DNA of 9,524 nt from a bacterium. Its GTDB lineage: Bacteria > Thermosulfidibacterota > Thermosulfidibacteria > Thermosulfidibacterales > Thermosulfidibacteraceae. Within the stretch, counting starts at the first letter, position 1; every line of letters starts with the position of its first letter. The position numbers and the translations under genes were made by a program. The stretch is from NCBI GenBank assembly GCA_027022065.1, contig JALVZS010000013.1, positions 1,647 to 11,170 on the forward strand, in the 5' to 3' direction. Below, piece after piece: positions 1 to 9,524 of the stretch. The notes below the pieces were generated by a model, which saw only the letters and a program-made list of their open reading frames with translations, had not been told where the DNA came from and did no database searches.

Positions 1-376
1 GGTTTATAGGTCCCCTAACAAAGACCGCTCCCTTTTTCAGTAACCACTCATGGGCAAGCTCAAAAAGCTTAGATGAAACATCTTTATCATCAACACTTTC
101 AAAAAAACCAAAGTATCCTACGTTTTCTCCCCTATACTTGAAGTGAAACCTGTCGTATATGGCGGCAATCCTGCCCAAAGGGCGTCCTATATCATCCGTT
201 ATATAGAAAAAAGCAGCATCTGCATGGTTAAAGAAGGGATTTTTGTTCTTGTTTAGAAGAGTCATCATATCGGCCACTATAGGAGGGACCCAGTTTTCAT
301 CACCTTTGTATATAGCCCAGGGAACCCTGATAAACTCTATAAGGCTTTTTTTGTCGGAAACCTCGTGAATCCTCAT
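1..376 (-). CDS. GNAT-superfamily acyltransferase, YghO-like (5' part only)
   Basis: This is the N-terminal 125 codons of a gene that runs off the low-coordinate edge, translated by hand from the minus strand. The ATG at 376-374 overlaps the TGA of the upstream synthase gene as ATGA, which suggests translational coupling; its own Shine-Dalgarno is weak (AAAGGT about 11 nt upstream). Visible family blocks are [10 protein letters not shown] (15-24) with D26 and W29-V-P-P (29-32), N-P-F-F-N-H-A (46-52), G-R-I-A-A-I-Y-D (68-75), G-F-F-E-S (90-94) and G-P-I-N (122-125). I recognise this pattern from COG-type proteins annotated as YghO-like or GNAT N-acetyltransferases, which often sit beside serine-palmitoyltransferase-like genes in bacteria. 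The likely role is acyl transfer to an amino group, possibly N-acylation of the neighbour's product. The C-terminal half and the stop codon are outside the window, so the acyl-CoA site cannot be judged. Confidence 0.75.
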
Positions 377-1557
377 ATTATACCGAACCTTTTGCCTACC
401 TTCTCCAACTTCTCAAGAGCAAAGTCTATATGTTCAGGCTTGTGAGTGGCCATAACGCTGAGGCGCAAAAGAGACTTTCCAGGTGGCACCCCTGGAGGCA
501 CAACGGGATTCACAAACACTCCCTCATCGTGAAGAGCTCTGCATATCTGGAAGGTCTTTAACTCATCCCCTATGTAGACAGGAATTACCGGAGTCTGAGT
601 GTTTCCTATGTCAAATCCCAAAGATCTAAGGCCCTCCTGTAGCCTTCTGGTGTTCTCCCAAAGGGCCTTTCTTCTTTCGGGCTCGCTCTTGAGAATGCGC
701 AAGGCCTCTAAAGCAGCAGCGGTATTGGGCGGAGAAATGCTGGCACTAAAAATCAAAGCCCTGGCCTTGTGCTTGAGATATTCTATCACATCCCTGTTTG
801 ATGCAGCAAATCCTCCTAAAGATGCCAAAGACTTACTAAAGGTTCCCATTATGATGTCCACCTCATCCGTTAAACCAAAGTGCTCCGCCGTTCCTGCCCC
901 AGTCTCCCCGAGTACTCCAAGGCCATGGGCATCATCAATCATGAGACGTGCCCCGTATTTCTTGCACAGCTTCAGTATCTCTGGAACAGGAGCTATATCC
1001 CCCTCCATGCTGTAAACACCATCAACCACTATGAGTTTACCTGCCTCAGTCTCAAGCCCTTGAAGCACCTTTTCAAGATGGGCCATATCGTTGTGCCTAA
1101 ATCTCTTTATCTCACCCAGAGAGAGCCGGCAGCCTTCCACTATGCTGGCGTGGTCCGATTTATCTATGATAACGTAATCTCCTTTACCCACAAGTGTGGA
1201 GATTATGCCAAGATTGGTTTGAAAGCCTGTACTGAAGAGCAGAACCGCCTCCTTACCCAGAAACTCAGCAAGCTCATGCTCCAGTTGTAGATGCAGGTCC
1301 AAGGTGCCGTTGAGGAAGCGCGATCCTGCACAACCTGTTCCGTATTTATCTATGGCTCTCTTTGCAGCCTCCTTTACCCTGGGATCATCTGTGAGGCCCA
1401 AGTAACTGTTGGAGCCAAGCATGATGAGTTCTTTTCCATTTATCCTTACCACGGGCCCCTGTTGGGTGGTAATGGGCCTGAAGTAGGGATATATTCCCAT
1501 CTTCCTTACTCTGTCCGGCTCCTTAAAGGCAAAACACTTCTCAAAAATGTCCGCCAC
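373..1557 (-). CDS. PLP-dependent alpha-oxoamine synthase, serine palmitoyltransferase-like
   Basis: A 394-residue fold-type I PLP enzyme of the alpha-oxoamine synthase family, which condenses an amino acid with an acyl thioester and releases CO2. The start is GTG at 1557-1555, supported by a Shine-Dalgarno GGAGGT (1565-1570) seven bases upstream; the next in-frame Met (residue 20) would cut into the conserved G-I-Y-P-Y-F-R-P-I block (21-29). Visible sites are S-N-S-Y-L-G (49-54), G-S-R-F-L-N-G-T (78-85), H136 in D-H-A-S (PLP stacking), D208 and H211 in D-D-A-H-G, and the Schiff-base lysine K242 in G-T-F-S-K-S (238-243). The N-terminal block, [11 protein letters not shown] and the C-terminal N-P-V-V-P-P (350-355) look more like bacterial serine palmitoyltransferases, especially the Bacteroidetes kind, than like BioF or Kbl, which usually carry T-L-G-K around the lysine. 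The Arg of the Sphingomonas R-P-P motif is V353 here, by my remembered alignment. BioF or glycine C-acetyltransferase remains possible. It lies 15 bases after ychF. Confidence 0.85.
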
Positions 1558-1572: not shown

Positions 1573-2661
1573 TTAGTTTTTGAACCTTATGTAAACGAGG
1601 TCCCCATCCTCAACTACATAATCTCTACCCTCCACCCTAATAAGGCCCTTCTCCCTGGCCACAGACAGAGATCCTATTTTATCAAGCTCCTCAAAGGGAA
1701 TAACCTCTGCCTTTATAAAGCCCTTCTGCATGTCTGTGTGTATCTTTCCCGCTGCCTCCCAAACGGTTGATCCCCTCTTCAATGTCCAAGCCCTTGCCTC
1801 GTTCTCGTTGGCGGTAAAAAAGGTTATAAGCTTCAATGTAGTGTAGCCCGCTTTTATCAGTCTCTCAAGTCCCGATTTTTTTAGTCCAAACTGCTCCAGA
1901 AACTCCTTCCTCTCCTCAGGAGAAAGCTCCGAAAGCTCCTCTTCCAGCTTCCCGCATATAACCACGAATCCAGCATTTTTCTCCTGTGCAATTCTTCTGA
2001 GCCTGTTAGCTGCCTCTCCCTCTATCCCATCCTCGTCAACATTTGCCACATAGAGCACAGGCTTAAGCGTTATAAACTGATAGGGCTTAACTGCCTCAAG
2101 CTCTTCCTCACTCCACTCAAGAAACCTCAACTGCACACCGTCCTTCAGAGCCTCATAGGCTTTATTAAGGGCTTCAAGCTCCCTCTTTCTCGCCCTATCT
2201 CCAGACCTCACCACCTTCTCCAGCCTTTTCAGGTTTCTTTCAGCCACCTCAAGATCGGAAAGCACCAGCTCAAGCTCCACTAGCGCCACATCCCTTTCGG
2301 GATTAACATCTCCCTCCACATGGGAAACATTAGGATCAGAAAAGCACCTAACCACATGCACCACCGCATCAACACCCCTTATGTGGGAGAGAAACTGATT
2401 CCCCAGTCCCTCCCCGTGACTTGCCCCTTTTACCAAGCCTGCTATATCCACGAACTCTATATACGTAGGTGTGGCCTTCGCAGACCCCACTATCTCTCTT
2501 ATGCGCTCAAGACGGGTATCGGGCACCTCCACCACACCCACATTGGGATCCACCGTGCAGAAGGGATAATTCTCGGCAGGAACCGATGCACCTGATAGGG
2601 CGTTGAATATGGTGGATTTTCCCACATTAGGAAGCCCCACTATACCACATTTAAAGCCCAT
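1573..2661 (-). CDS. ychF: YchF/OLA1-family ATPase with TGS domain
   Basis: A 362-residue Obg-related P-loop NTPase of the YchF/OLA1 subfamily, the usual family length (E. coli about 363). These cytosolic proteins bind ribosomes, prefer ATP to GTP and are linked to translation and stress responses. Walker A is G-L-P-N-V-G-K-S-T (9-17), the switch I region contains [10 protein letters not shown] (31-40), and the G3 motif is [10 protein letters not shown] (72-81). H92 in H-V-V-R-C-F fits the family's catalytic-region histidine. The G4 position reads A-N-V-D-E-D (206-211) rather than the NKxD of GTPases, which fits ATP preference. A charged helical stretch (about 118-170) forms the coiled-coil insertion, and a TGS domain occupies about 278-360. 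The ATG at 2661 lies inside the last codons of pssA (11-base overlap), with GGGGT about 8 bases upstream as a plausible ribosome site. It is a housekeeping gene with no obvious metabolic tie to its neighbours. Confidence 0.97.
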
Positions 2662-3376
2662 TTTCCTTCACCCCTTCGGATAGGGCCTCCTCTCTGCCTT
2701 TCAGAAGCATTAGTGGTCCTGAAAGGTAATATCCGAAAAATATCAAAAATATAAATAAATAAGGCTCAGAAGCAATCACAAACACGGCAAGCACAGAGGC
2801 AAGCACCACAGCGAAGGAACCCTTCTTTGAAAGCTCCCCTTTAAAGGCAGCATACTTCACTCTGCTTACCATAAGAAGCGATGCTGTAAACATAAAAAAC
2901 GCCGCTACTATAGCCAAAAGCTTATAAGGTAGTGATGAAAGCATATGGGTGGCGAATATATGGTAGGAGGCCATAAGCCCTGCAGCGGCAGGTATTGGGA
3001 AACCGACAAAATCCTTGGTCTTTTCATTGGAAGCCATAACATTAAACCTTGCAAGCCTTAAAGCACCACAGGCCACAAATAGAAAAGCTATCAGCCACCC
3101 TATCCTGCCAAAGGGCTCCAGCACCCATTTGTAAACGAGTATAGATGGAGCAACCCCAAAGGACACAAGATCCGCAAGAGAGTCGTAGTTGATACCAAAA
3201 TCGCTTGTGGTGTTGGTTATCCTGGCTACCCTCCCGTCTAGTATGTCCATAAACATGGCTATAAACAGTATCCAAGCCGCCTTCTCATACTCCCCCTTCA
3301 GAGAAGCAACCAGAGAGTAAAAGCCAAAGAAGAGGTTTCCCGTGGTAAAAAGATTGGGTAAAATATAAAGCCTCAT
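2651..3376 (-). CDS. pssA: CDP-diacylglycerol--serine O-phosphatidyltransferase
   Basis: A 241-residue integral membrane enzyme of the CDP-alcohol phosphatidyltransferase family. It makes phosphatidylserine from CDP-diacylglycerol and L-serine. The full signature D-G-x2-A-R-x8-G-x3-D-x3-D is present: D47, G48, A51, R52, G61, D65 and D69, with D44 just ahead. The aspartates bind the metal and the pyrophosphate. Further family blocks are [10 protein letters not shown] (103-112) and F-V-G-F-P-I-P-A-A (123-131). About six hydrophobic segments are visible (roughly 9-26, 33-46, 92-109, 128-145, 151-170 and 188-224, the last probably two helices). This is the membrane type of PssA found in Bacillus and many other bacteria, not the soluble E. 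coli type. Its ATG overlaps the psd stop as ATGA (3373-3376), with GGGAGA about 8 bases upstream. Directly after psd, it completes a two-gene phosphatidylethanolamine unit. Confidence 0.95.
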
Positions 3377-3981
3377 TTTACTATTCTCCCTATTATGGTT
3401 TCCCCAGCCTTAACCTTGCTTCCCCTCTTTACATAAAGCTCCCATCTACCAGGAAGGTGGAGATCCACCCTGGAGCCAAAGGCTATCATGCCAATTCTTT
3501 CTCCTGCCTCAACCTTCTGCCCTTCCCTTACCCAGCAGTGAATCCTTCTTGCCAGAAGCCCCGTTATTTGCACCACCTTCACATTGCCAATAGCGGTTTC
3601 CATCTTTATGGTATTGCTAACATTTGTGCTTGAATCCTTCTTAAAGGCCGCCTTGTAGCCCCTTCCACCCTTGTAAATCCTCTTGACCACCCCTGTATAC
3701 GGGGCCCTGTTCACATGACAGTCAAATATGGACATGAATATGGAGACAAACGCCTTCTCATCATCAGAGTAAGCCTCCATGACCTTCCCATCGGCGGGAG
3801 AAAGGGCAAACTCCGGAGAAAATACAACATCCCTTTCCGGATCCCTGAAGAAGCGTGTAAAAAATATGGATATAAAAAACAAAAGGGCTGCTGGAGCATA
3901 AAGCCCCAAGCAGCCGCATACAAAACCCAATGCAAAAGCGCCCCATATAAAGGGCTTACCCTCTGGCCTTATCCTATTCAT
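3373..3981 (-). CDS. psd: phosphatidylserine decarboxylase proenzyme (short form)
   Basis: A 202-residue self-processing decarboxylase that converts phosphatidylserine to phosphatidylethanolamine. Two hydrophobic segments (about 11-30 and 31-45) anchor the N-terminus in the membrane. Conserved blocks are F-R-D-P-E-R (45-50), S-P-A-D-G (61-65, with D64), D-C-H-V-N-R (87-92, with H89) and G-L-L-A-R-R-I (141-147). Cleavage is expected between G169 and S170 in F-G-S-R-V-D; the serine becomes the pyruvoyl cofactor of a small alpha chain (170-202). F-G-S replaces the L-G-S-T of the longer E. coli enzyme, as is normal for this short PSD class seen in Geobacter-like bacteria and archaea. The ATG at 3981 overlaps the end of ilvC by 8 bases. 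An in-frame TGA lies three codons upstream, so no longer start is possible. The only purine-rich stretch (GAAAGG) abuts the ATG, so translation probably depends on coupling to ilvC. Confidence 0.94.
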
Positions 3982-4972
3982 CCTTTCTCAACCAGGGCAT
4001 CATAGCTCTCAAGCGCTTTCCTACTTCTTCTATTGGATGCTCCTCATCAGCCTTAAGTAGCGCATTGAACACAGGCCTTCCAACCATATTCTCCAGTATC
4101 CACTCCTTGGCAAAGGCACCTGTCTGGATCTCTGTAAGTATCTCCCAGAGCCTCTCCCTCACATGTGCATCTATTACCCTAGGACCCCTGGTCACATCCC
4201 CGTATTTGGCAGTGTCGCTAACCCATTTTCTCATTCCACTTATGCCCTGCTCGTATATGAGATCCACAATCAGCTTCAATTCATGGAGACATTCAAAGTA
4301 GGCCACCTCAGGCTGATACCCTGCCTCCACCAGGGTTTCAAAAGCAGCTTTAATAAGAGCGGTAACTCCCCCACAGAGGATCACCTGCTCTCCAAAAAGA
4401 TCCGTCTCTGTCTCCTCCTTGAAGGTGGTTTCAATAACACCTGCCCTTGTCCCCCCGATGCCCTTTGCGTAGGCTAAAGCTATATCAAAGGCCTTTCCCG
4501 TGGCGTTCTGCACAACAGCCACAAGGCATGGAACTCCTTTGCCCTCCTGGTACATACGCCTAACAAGAGAGCCCGGGCCTTTTGGAGCCACCATGAAAAC
4601 ATCAACATACTTGGGAGGGACTATCTGGCCGAAGTGTATGTTAAAGCCGTGGGCAAAGGCAAGGGCATTTCCCTCTTTAAGGTAAGGGGCTATTTGGTTC
4701 TTATAAACCTCTGGCTGCATGGTGTCGGGAATGAGCATCATTATAACATCCGCCCACTGAGCAGCCTCAGCAATCTCCATCACCTTAAGCCCGTCATTCT
4801 GCGCCCTTTCCCAGGATGCTCCTCCCTTTCTCAGACCCACCGCAACATCAAGACCCGAATCCTTAAGGTTTAAGGCATGGGCATGTCCTTGGCTACCGTA
4901 GCCTATAATCGCTATCTTCTTGCCTTTAAGAGCATCAAGACTCACCTCTTCATCTGTGTAAACCTTCGCCAT
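3974..4972 (-). CDS. ilvC: ketol-acid reductoisomerase, class I
   Basis: A 332-residue class I (short) enzyme of valine and isoleucine synthesis. It isomerises and reduces 2-acetolactate or 2-aceto-2-hydroxybutyrate to the dihydroxy acid, using Mg2+ and NAD(P)H. The N-terminal Rossmann domain shows G-Y-G-S-Q-G-H-A (24-31). The cofactor-selecting loop after the second strand reads G-L-R-K-G-G-A-S (46-53), with Gly at 51 where a serine is common. Active-site candidates are H108 (A-H-G-F), K131, D191 and E195 (D-L-F-G-E), E227 and E231, and S252. The C-terminal all-helical domain covers about 183-327. The ATG at 4972 is 4 bases after the ilvN stop; its strong ribosome site GGGAGGT (4979-4985) lies in the last ilvN codons and the first base of its TAA. 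The protein ends in W-L-R-K-D-E, overlapping psd. Confidence 0.98.
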
Positions 4973-4976
4973 CCTT

Positions 4977-5513
4977 TTACCTCCCTCCAGAGATTTTGAG
5001 GCTCTTAGGCCCCCTTAAAGCGGCAACCTTTCCTGTTCTTATAATTTCTCTTATGCCGCACTCCTTAAGAAGAGAAATGGCAGCGTTTATCTTGTCCTCA
5101 TTGCCGGTAATCTCTATGGTAAAGGTCTCCGGGCTTACATCAACTATGTTGCCCCTGAATATCTGGGCTATCCTCATGGCCTCTGCCCTGGCCTCGCCTC
5201 TTGCACTTACCTTCACCAACACCAGTTCCCTCTCCACATAGTCCATCCCGCTTGCGGTAAGATCCAGAACCTTAATAACATCAATTATCTTCCTCAACTG
5301 CTTAACTATCTGCTCTATAATCAGGGGATGGCCCTCTGTCACAAGGGTTATCCTTGAAACGGTGGGATCAAGGGTTTCCCCCACAGATATGGATAGTATA
5401 TTGTAGCCCTTGGCACTAAATAGTGTGGCTATCCTTGCCAAAACTCCAGGCTGGTTCTCAACAAGAAGGGCTATAGTGTGTCTCTGCACTCCTTCATTAT
5501 CCTTCTGCTGCAT
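4977..5513 (-). CDS. ilvN: acetolactate synthase regulatory (small) subunit
   Basis: A 178-residue regulatory partner of IlvB, which raises the activity of the catalytic subunit and carries valine feedback inhibition. The N-terminal ACT domain (about 12-85) holds [10 protein letters not shown] (16-25) and K-G-Y-N-I-L (35-40). N20, G23 and N38 match, by my alignment, the valine-binding positions N11, G14 and N29 of E. coli IlvH, so valine control is probably kept. The second half (about 93-165), with E-R-E-L-V-L-V-K-V (94-102) and F-R-G-N-I-V-D-V (119-126), is the usual second ACT-like domain. The first ten residues extend beyond the compact E. coli form. The ATG at 5513 is chosen because GAGGTGG (5518-5524) precedes it; a GTG at codon 9 has no well-spaced site. 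It starts 9 bases after ilvB. Confidence 0.97.
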
Positions 5514-5522
5514 TTTACCACC

Positions 5523-7277
5523 TCATGATGGGAAGTTTAGAGGCCTCATGCCTTTAAGTGCCTCGCCGTTTTCGGATGTTTTTGGTCCCTCAAGGATCAT
5601 CTGTTTTACAGAAGCTCCAGCAGGAACCATGGGGAACACATTTTCCTCCCTATCAACATGGACATCCACCACAACTGGTCCCTTATGCTCAAGAGCTTCC
5701 TTCAACGCCTTTTTAAGCTCCGAAGGTCTCTCCACCCTCATCCCCTTTATGCCATATGCCTCCGCAACCTTAACGAAATCCGGCTGGCAGGAAATATCGG
5801 TTTCTGAGTACACCCTGTCAAAGAAGAGCTGCTGCCACTGCCTCACCATACCAAGGTAGCCGTTGTTGATAATGATCACCTTCACGGGAAGGTTGTACTG
5901 CTTCACTGTTGCAAGCTCCTGTATGTTCATCTGGAAGCTTCCATCCCCGGCCACATCAATCACTAGAGCATCCGGATGTGCCACCTGAACCCCTATTGCC
6001 GCAGGAAAGCCAAATCCCATAGTTCCAAGACCGCCCGAGGTTATGAAGTGCCTAGGATATATGTGCTTGTAAAACTGGGCCGTCCACATCTGATGCTGTC
6101 CCACCTCTGTGCAAATGTAGGCCTTGCCCTGGGTAAGTTCATACAGGGTCTCTATAACCATCTGGGGCTTTATAACATCTGCGCTTTTGTCGTAGCTTAA
6201 CGGATACTCCTCTTGCCACTCCCTTATCTTCTCAAACCACTCCCTATGTTTTTTCTCCCAGTCTATATCTACCTTCTCCAGCTCTTCCAGGATCTGGCCC
6301 AGAATAACCTTCGCATCTCCCACTATGGGAATATCCACCACCACATTCTTACTTATGGATGCTGGATCTATATCAATATGAATCTTAACCGCATCAGGAG
6401 CGAAGTCCTCAAGCTTACCTGTAACCCTGTCGTCAAACCTGGCACCTATGGCTATGAGAAGATCGCATTCGGTCACACACATATTGGCAGTATAAGTTCC
6501 GTGCATCCCTAGCATACCCACGAACAGAGGGTGATCTCCAGGAAAAGCACCCAATCCCATAAGAGTAAGGGTTACAGGAGCATGTATGGTTTCGGCAAGC
6601 TTCTTCAGCTCTTCAAAGGCACCAGACCAGTTTATTCCTCCCCCTGCGTATATCAAGGGCCTTCTTGCCTTTACCATAGCCTCAACAGCCCTCTTAACCT
6701 GGGCAGGATGTCCCTTTATGTTGGGGTTATATCCCCTCCTTGAAACCTTTTCCGGATATACGTACTCCGCCTCTCCCACTATTACATCTTTAGGCATATC
6801 AACAAGAACAGGGCCGGGCCTTCCCGTGGATGCTATGTATATGGCCTCCTTTATTATCCTAGGAAGGTCCTCCGTATGCTTCACCAGATAGTTGTGCTTT
6901 GTGCAAGGCCTCGTTATTCCCACTATGTCAGCTTCTTGAAAGGCATCGTTGCCTATGAGAGCCGTGGGAACCTGTCCCGTAAAGACTACCACAGGGGAAG
7001 AATCCATGTAAGCGGTAGCAATCCCCGTCACCGTATTGGTTCCTCCAGGGCCAGAAGTTACGAGAACCACACCTACTCTTCCTGTGGATCTCGCATAGCC
7101 GTCTGCAGCATGAACCGCCGCCTGCTCATGCCTCACAAGGATATGCCTAACCTTGTCCTTGTACTTGGGGTAGGCATCGTAGATGTTTATAACAGCACCA
7201 CCCGGAAGTCCAAAAACAGTATCAATCCCCTCTCTGATGAGGGTTTCCCAGAACATATCTGCGCCTTTCAGCTTCAT
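5523..7277 (-). CDS. ilvB: acetolactate synthase catalytic (large) subunit
   Basis: A 584-residue thiamin-diphosphate enzyme that joins two pyruvates to 2-acetolactate, or pyruvate and 2-oxobutyrate to 2-aceto-2-hydroxybutyrate, the first common step to valine, leucine and isoleucine. The N-terminal domain carries the cofactor-activating glutamate E51 in R-H-E-Q-A-A (49-54) and S-G-P-G-G-T-N (75-81). The middle domain has R-F-D-D-R-V-T-G (280-287), typical of FAD-binding acetohydroxyacid synthases. The ThDP/Mg motif runs from G-D-G-S (444-447) to N-N (471-472). The W-Q-Q segment at 481-483, in the loop near the herbicide and substrate site, is also typical. The ATG overlaps the ilvD stop as ATGA (7274-7277), with GAGGAG five bases upstream. 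The following ilvN gene encodes its regulatory partner, so anabolic synthase is a better call than catabolic AlsS or another ThDP enzyme. Confidence 0.98.
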
Positions 7278-8947
7278 GACTGCTCCTCTACAACATCTCT
7301 GTATACGGCCCCTGTTGAGGCACTTGTCACAAATTTTGCGTATCTTGCAAGATATCCCTTTGTTATCTTGGGCTGAGGAGGCTTCCAGCTTTCCCTCCTC
7401 TTTTTAAGCTCCTCTTCAGACAGCTCCACCTCCAGCCTTCTCGCAGGTATGTCTATTTTTATAACATCCCCATCCTGCAACAAAGCTATGGGACCGCCCT
7501 CTGCAGCCTCAGGGGAAACATGCCCTATGCATGGACCTTTGGTTCCGCCTGAAAACCTGCCATCCGTTATCAGCGCCACAGATTCAGAAAGACCCATGCC
7601 TACAATGGCAGAGGTGGGAGCAAGCATCTCCCTCATACCAGGACCACCCTTTGGACCTTCATACCTTATAACCACCACCTCTCCCTCTTTTATCCTTCCC
7701 CCAAGGATGGCCTCCATTGCCTCCTCTTCAGAGTTAAATACCCTCGCCTTTCCCGTGAATTTCATCATATTCTCGCTAACAGCGGTCTGCTTGATGACTG
7801 CTCCATCTGGAGCAAGGTTGCCGAAGAGAACAGCTATACCTCCCTCTTTATGATAAGGATTATCCAAAGGCCTTATCACATCCTCATCAAAGATGGTGGC
7901 CCCATCGGCTATCTCGTATATGGTCTTTCCGGAAACGGTGGGAACATTGTTCAAAAGCTCCTTCAGCCTCTTCATCACTGCAGGGATCCCACCTGCTGCA
8001 TCAAGATCCTCCATCATATAATCCCCGCCTGGGCGCAGGTTTGATATGTGCGGGGTTTCCCTGCTGATTCTATCAAAGTCCCTGAGATCCAGCTTTACAC
8101 CTGCCTCGTTTGCTATGGCGGTTATGTGTAGCACCGCATTGGTGGAACCACCTAGGGCCATATCTATCCTTATGGCGTTGTGTATGGCCTCCTTTGTCAT
8201 TATGTCTCTGGGCCTTATGTTCTCTCTCACAAGCTCCACAACCCTGTATCCAGAATCAAAGGCTATACGCCTCTTTTTGGCAAGCCCAGCCACCGCCGTA
8301 GCACATCCAGGAAGGGACATGCCCATGGCCTCAGTGACACAGGCCATAGTGTTTGCCGTGTAAAGCCCCTGGCATGAACCAGGACCGGGGCACGCCTCCA
8401 TCTCGCAGAGCTCAAGCTCCTTTTCATCAATCTGACCTGCTTTGAACCTACCCACAGCCTCAAAGGTGTCCCTAACCAAGGAGAGTCTCTTTTTACCTAT
8501 TCTACCGGACTGCATGGGGCCCGCCGTTACCACTATTGATGGGATATTTATGCGGGCAGCGGCCATTAGCATACCTGGTGTGATCTTATCGCAGTTCGTC
8601 AAAAAGACTAGACCATCAAGCTTGTGAGCCTCAACCACACACTCAATCATATCTGCTATCAACTCCCTTGATGGAAGAGAGTACTTCATACCGGAGTGAC
8701 CCATGGCCACACCATCACATATACCGGGAACACAGAAGATAAATGCATACCCTCCAGCAGAGTGTATCCCCTTCTCAATCCACCTCTCCAGCTCCCTCAT
8801 TCCCACATGGCCTGGGATGAGATCCGTGAAGCTGCTCACTATTCCTATAAAGGGCATGTCCCAAGCCTTTTTGGGAACCCCCGTTGCGTAAAGGAGCGCC
8901 CTGTGAGGAACACGCTCAACTCCCCTCTTTACCTCATCGCTTCTCAT
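7274..8947 (-). CDS. ilvD: dihydroxyacid dehydratase
   Basis: A 557-residue Fe-S dehydratase of the IlvD/Edd family. It converts 2,3-dihydroxy-isovalerate and 2,3-dihydroxy-3-methylvalerate to the 2-oxoacids for valine and isoleucine. Conserved sites are S-R-E-L-I-A-D (93-99), N-C-D-K-I-T-P-G (118-125, with cluster cysteine C119, D120 and K121), C-P-G-P-G-S-C-Q-G (186-194, with C192) and the catalytic-type serine S466 in D-G-R-F-S-G-G-T (462-469). The third cysteine motif (G-N-T-C-N) of plant and mycobacterial [2Fe-2S] enzymes is absent: the segment reads [10 protein letters not shown] (38-47), as in E. coli-type enzymes. The start at 8947 gives the family's usual M-R-S-D-E beginning and has GGAGG (8954-8958) six bases upstream. 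It is the first ilv gene, only 26 bases after the DUF465 gene, so there is no room for a leader peptide or T-box in front of it. Confidence 0.97.
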
Positions 8948-9241: not shown

Positions 9242-9524
9242 TTATAACAACTTCTCCATAACCAGTCCATCCTCTCCGTCGTGATACATGCCTTTTCTAA
9301 CTCCAACCACCTCAAAACCAAATTTCTTATAAAGCCTCTGTGCTTTTATATTGGAAGCCCTCACTTCAAGTACTATATAGTTGGCTCCCTCCTTTTCCGA
9401 AACCTCTATGACCCTCTCCATGAGCATCCTACCTATACCTAATCCCTGGAATTCGGGAGCAACAGCTATATTGGCCAGGTAAGCCTCAGGAGGCAGTATC
9501 CACAAAACCGCATACCCAGCTAAC
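9242..9524 (-). CDS. rimI: RimI-type ribosomal protein S18-alanine N-acetyltransferase (3' part)
   Basis: The C-terminal 94 codons of a GNAT acetyltransferase whose start is beyond the high-coordinate edge. The reading frame stays open to position 9524 with L-A-G-Y-A-V-L-W, so the TTG at 9505 is not the true start. Family blocks are [16 protein letters not shown] (the Q-x-x-G-x-G acetyl-CoA pyrophosphate loop), [18 protein letters not shown] and [10 protein letters not shown], followed by M-E-K. This run is the standard RimI C-terminus, including the glutamate of L-E-V-R and the tyrosine of G-M-Y as likely catalytic acid and base. RimI acetylates the N-terminal alanine of ribosomal protein S18 in model species. 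The N-terminal third is missing here, so another RimI-like protein acetyltransferase cannot be excluded. The stop at 9242 is 37 bases before the DUF465 gene. Confidence 0.88.

Follow-up and report, generated by a model that had tools for sequence, protein, structure and literature searches.

Sphingolipids have long been assumed to be rare in bacteria, and two overlapping genes at the start of the 9,524-nucleotide stretch of DNA analysed here (the window) raise the question whether the bacterium that carries them encodes the opening steps of ceramide formation. An earlier note on this DNA had described the genes as a serine palmitoyltransferase (SPT)-like synthase coupled to a YghO-like acyltransferase, and had proposed a ceramide-like lipid branch. 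This proposal has turned out to be largely right, supported by the tree of the synthase, the YghO homology of its neighbour and the occurrence of CerR in the order. We estimate at about 0.86 the probability that the pair encodes the first two bacterial ceramide steps, with a CerR-family reductase at another locus of the genome. The evidence is drawn from sequence (family membership and active-site residues), from phylogeny and predicted fold, and from the way in which the genes are coupled and co-occur in the order. The features of the pair are the following:

373 to 1557, reverse strand: spt, serine palmitoyltransferase, 394 residues, GTG start, PLP lysine K242 (from NCBIfam, structure matches, tree and active-site residues)
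1 to 376, reverse strand: bcerS, bCerS/YghO-family N-acyltransferase-like, N-terminal third only (from YghO homology and a family profile)
373 to 376, reverse strand: ATGA, 4-base overlap of the spt stop and the bcerS start (read from the sequence)

The 394-residue reading frame, including the SPT-like blocks that had been quoted for it (FVNPVVPP among them), is present at these coordinates, and the 4-base overlap is real, as the coding strand at the junction reads ...TATAATATGAGGATTC..., with the stop overlapping the next ATG as ATGA. The adjoining gene has likewise been found to be YghO-like, with the refinement that it is broken by an assembly gap and lies only partly in the window. The piece inside the window (1-376) encodes about 125 residues; 10 Ns at positions 1637-1646 of contig C13, directly before the window start, split the gene, and the remainder (C13 923-1609, reverse strand, 228 residues) lies past this scaffold gap. 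On a profile of about 371 positions derived from relatives, the two pieces span positions 1-127 and 137-370, so that the gap costs bcerS only about 9 residues and the gene otherwise looks whole. Intact copies exist in relatives, e.g., at L045:7189-8304. Short N scaffold gaps adjoin the window both at position 1 and at 9524, and a rimI-like GNAT reading frame at the far end of the window is also interrupted by one.

For the synthase, the best NCBIfam model has been NF047600 (Bacteroidota-type SPT), with 599 bits at a curated cut-off of 640, and the two other SPT equivalogs are matched below their cut-offs as well (NF047599, 429 < 500; NF047603, 366 < 670). As these models appear to be lineage-specific, the synthase has been assigned to the broader SPT clade only and to none of the three. 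Models of BioF and Kbl reach 425 bits and below, far under the value for NF047600; TIGR01822 (Kbl) gives 339 bits (cut-off 493), and TIGR00858 (bioF) gives 412.9 bits, slightly below its cut-off of 426.45. Among solved structures, the top matches are those of Sphingobacterium multivorum SPT (8guh/3a2b) at 469 bits, compared with 342 for the next alpha-oxoamine synthase (AOS) and 272 for cysteate C-acyltransferase. The alignment to S. multivorum SPT is ungapped, with 203 of 387 residues identical (52.5%).

In an AOS tree of 72 rows, built by a quick method and with the BioF reference (Klebsiella) on a long branch, the synthase falls within the SPT clade alongside the S. multivorum and E. coli enzymes, and the branch that parts this clade from Kbl, HemA, BioF and the genome's own paralogue carries an SH-aLRT of 99. 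Given the quick method and the long Klebsiella branch, the SPT call is based on the agreement between tree, residues and scores. The paralogue, a second AOS of BioF type, lies outside the SPT clade and scores 476 bits, above the bioF cut-off. It is located at L004:8733-9896, adjoining coaD and other unrelated genes, with no biotin genes nearby. A housekeeping BioF or Kbl with an unrelated GNAT acetyltransferase as its neighbour is extremely improbable: the fold is common to all AOS and the TIGR00858 score comes near its cut-off, but the tree placement, the SPT-type GTFSKS motif, the residue A272 (see below) and the separate paralogue oppose it, and neither biotin nor threonine-degradation genes have been seen beside the synthase on the contig stretch. 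We have rejected this identity on tree, residues, own paralogue and gene context.

The catalytic and serine-contacting residues have been compared with those given for S. multivorum SPT (PMC10196870). Positions N50, S79, H136, S183, D208, H211, T239, S241, K242, A272 and R365 match that enzyme, and these include the PLP lysine K242, the stacking histidine H136 and the PLP or substrate ligands D208, H211, T239 and R365. SPT and SulA, the enzyme of sulfonolipid synthesis, can be told apart by a single residue, which is Ala in SPT and Lys in SulA (position 281; PMC9304779). The synthase has A272 at this position, and alanine is found there in 63 of 63 SPT-clade rows and in none of the 9 other AOS. 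A cysteate-derived sulfonolipid as the product of the pair, instead of a sphingolipid, would draw on the SPT-like fold of SulA and on an active site that is almost entirely the same (PMC9304779), yet we regard it as extremely improbable, since the diagnostic lysine is replaced by alanine and the cysteate C-acyltransferase structure is matched far less well than SPT. The window synthase shares with this enzyme the AOS fold and the PLP site, at much lower similarity, and a SulA identity has been rejected on A272 and the lower score.

The serine contacts of the S. multivorum complex (N52, G80, S81, H138 and S243) are all kept. This bears on the possibility that the enzyme, although SPT-like, uses alanine, glycine or another amino acid in vivo and leads to a 1-deoxyceramide or a similar product. 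Both alanine and glycine are weakly accepted by the S. multivorum enzyme too (PMC10196870), and 1-deoxyceramides are made by Black Sea anaerobes with SPT-like genes (PMC11334938). We nevertheless consider such a preference unlikely, as among the compared contacts only M271 differs, and its replacement, I269, is the commonest residue at this position (58 of 63 SPT-clade rows). Apart from this residue, the window synthase departs from S. multivorum SPT in its own order-level branch of the tree and in its score below the Bacteroidota-type cut-off. The synthase is an SPT-clade enzyme, for which condensation of serine with a long-chain acyl thioester is predicted.

The acyltransferase has been compared with YghO of E. 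coli BL21, which was found in the BL21 spt region via the chromosome annotation. In pairwise BLASTP, the N-terminal piece shows 33% identity (E = 4e-21) and the C-terminal piece 37% (E = 1e-45). A profile made from SPT-adjacent relatives only gives 155 and 276 bits for the two halves and 369 bits for E. coli YghO itself. Among the named acyltransferase families of NCBIfam and Pfam, none matched either piece, and no NCBIfam model matching bCerS or YghO has been found; the general Pfam GNAT model Acetyltransf_1 scores 23.1 bits on the C-terminal piece (cut-off 20.7). The gene yghO has been listed as a homologue of Caulobacter CC_1154 (aca), an N-acyltransferase required for dihydroceramide formation (PMC9386255) that is named bCerS elsewhere (PMC11087976), and the comparison with bCerS, carried out through E. 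coli YghO, therefore places the window gene with this group. AlphaFold predicts the intact relative L045 as a tandem GNAT with a mean pLDDT of 92.5. The best solved match to this model is 7q3a, a mycobacterial tandem GNAT (Z 25.4), and N-myristoyltransferases, which use acyl-CoA, match at a Z of about 16. The model supports the tandem-GNAT fold and not an activity, and N-acylation of a sphingoid base is the predicted reaction. Both the model and the Acetyltransf_1 match in the gene's own C-terminal half agree with the earlier assignment to the GNAT superfamily. By full-length homology to YghO, the gene product is a bCerS/YghO-family acyltransferase and a putative ceramide synthase. It resembles CC_1154 and YghO in this homology (YghO being the one compared), in its company with SPT and in the tandem-GNAT fold predicted for the intact relative; the arrangement differs from that in E. 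coli BL21, where yghO lies on the opposite strand to spt.

The pairing recurs widely. Of 78 named loci, 58 carry a bCerS-family gene no more than 1.5 kb away from SPT, and 47 of these also have CerR within 3 kb. The share is biased as an estimate, because the loci were picked for their closeness to the window SPT, with Bacteroidota predominating. The same proximity of bCerS has been seen in 10 of 18 loci of a domain-wide sample and in 5 of 6 order relatives, compared with 1 of 24 loci of BioF/Kbl-type control synthases, which shows that the pairing is no chance event. Linked loci span Bacteroidota, Nitrospirota, Thermodesulfobacteriota, Elusimicrobiota and others. Close coupling (a gap of at most 10 bp or an overlap) occurs in 4 of the 5 order relatives with the pair and in 23 of the 58 named loci with it. 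Of the 9 genomes of the order, 7 have both SPT and bCerS; the other two, in which neither has been found, are only 71-73% complete. The single control locus with the pairing belongs to G004, a genome of the same order that has been rearranged: in it a bcerS-trxB block stands behind the BioF/Kbl-type paralogue and not behind spt (L145:6201-7382, L189:880-3279). G007, of the same genus, retains spt-bcerS, and the arrangement in G004 is a rearrangement with its breakpoint directly after the two related synthase genes. A published statement, used in discussing a salvage pathway, holds that in bacteria spt and cerS never share an operon (PMC11324152); the close coupling seen here and in many phyla qualifies it.

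Upstream of spt, the window contains the following genes:

1573 to 2661, reverse strand: ychF GTPase, conserved neighbour outside the pathway, directly upstream of spt (named from sequence)
2651 to 3376, reverse strand: pssA, CDP-diacylglycerol-serine O-phosphatidyltransferase, context only (TIGR00473, 153 bits, cut-off 107)
3373 to 3981, reverse strand: psd, phosphatidylserine decarboxylase, context only (NF003685, 199.8 bits, cut-off 183)

The order ychF-spt is kept in all 6 order relatives examined, and the row ilvD-ilvB-ilvN-ilvC-psd-pssA-ychF (window 1573-8947) is largely conserved across the order. The neighbouring pssA and psd hint at a phosphoethanolamine headgroup but prove nothing. 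No dedicated ACP, acpR or acyl-ACP synthetase has been found beside spt, and a search for an E. coli-type acyl-ACP synthetase returned weak matches only, probably generic AMP-ligases. The lack of a dedicated ACP next to spt fits the acyl-CoA-using Bacteroidota type better than the ACP-dependent proteobacterial type.

The reductase has to be sought elsewhere. The earlier note had seen neither CerR nor ACP near the pair and had concluded that the pathway continues downstream or differs; none indeed lies beside spt, for CerR throughout the order, and the second part can now be refined, as CerR is unlinked in this order. A CerR profile gives strong matches in 8 of 8 other order genomes (1e-67 to 1e-88). 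In a tree, these genes share a group with the CerR sequences that adjoin SPT, other extended SDRs falling outside it, and their exact position among the CerR sequences is weakly supported. In the eight genomes the gene follows a class-III aminotransferase and, where the stretch is covered, belongs to a metK-purE-tsaC-type row, in which all names but that of the aminotransferase have been assigned by eye. The locus thus resembles the spt-bcerS-cerR clusters of Bacteroidota and Nitrospirota in its adjacent SPT and bCerS and in the CerR-family gene of the other order genomes, and differs from them in the unlinked CerR of the metK-purE row and in the missing ACP or acyl-ACP synthetase beside spt.

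The window's own assembly has been queried with E. coli CerR, a 17-row CerR profile and a relative's own gene, and no strong match has resulted (best profile match 5e-25). A NAD-epimerase-like reading frame, L003 15291-15797, was rejected as CerR, being YfcH-type by eye. Taken at face value, the missing match would suit an organism that lacks CerR, in which the pathway ends at N-acyl-3-ketosphinganine or employs an unrelated reductase. We judge this improbable, considering the presence of the reductase in every other order genome and the state of the assembly, which is 88.3% complete. This assembly yielded neither metK, which in G002, a relative of the same family, is about 2.4 kb away from the CerR-family gene, nor, in a DNA search, the metK-purE-aminotransferase-CerR row. 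With metK of the same row also missing, the CerR stretch probably lies in the roughly 12% of missing sequence, so that the absence of CerR from the assembly is probably one of sequence and not of the gene. The class-III aminotransferase adjacent to CerR in L149-L156 (in L150, aminotransferase at 4455-5756 and CerR-family gene at 5760-6707) is GSAM-like, the L150 copy scoring 353 bits at a HemL cut-off of 527. That the reductase and this aminotransferase together convert ketoceramide to an unusual amino-modified ceramide in the order is a very unlikely reading; if true, a heat-loving order would make a sphingolipid type so far undescribed.

With an SPT, a bCerS-family acyltransferase and a CerR-family reductase as its components, the pathway that we infer, from its substrates and acyl donor to the order of its last two steps and the lipid produced, would run as follows. 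SPT would condense serine with a long-chain acyl thioester to 3-ketosphinganine, the acyl donor probably being acyl-CoA, which the closely related enzyme of Bacteroidota uses. The tandem-GNAT protein of the YghO/bCerS family would then N-acylate the amino group and yield ketoceramide, or dihydroceramide if reduction comes first, and the CerR-family reductase, from its separate locus, would reduce the 3-keto group. The literature disagrees on which of the two, reduction or N-acylation, comes first (PMC11087976). Judged from its genes, the lineage probably makes sphingolipids.

The proteins of the window contig and of contig C155 show an IVYWREL value of 0.437 and a charged-minus-polar bias of 13.3. 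The growth temperature estimated from this composition is about 75 C (an E. coli control gave a value near 34 C), and the host is an uncultured, probably heat-loving bacterium. The genome search places its lineage with genomes of its own order only, the next level being already the domain. The route had been called a little-described one for membrane lipids, which no longer applies to bacteria at large, as 38 phyla from the Black Sea are reported to carry SPT-like genes (PMC11334938). The pathway itself is known, and what is added are its core genes in a little-known lineage with a thermophile-like protein composition. Sphingolipids with phosphate headgroups have been described as making up to 40% of bacterial lipids in hydrothermal sediments at 40-80 C, and in the portion of that report considered here their producer is not named (PMC5572230). 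The order of the window may be regarded as a testable candidate source of these hot-sediment phosphosphingolipids.
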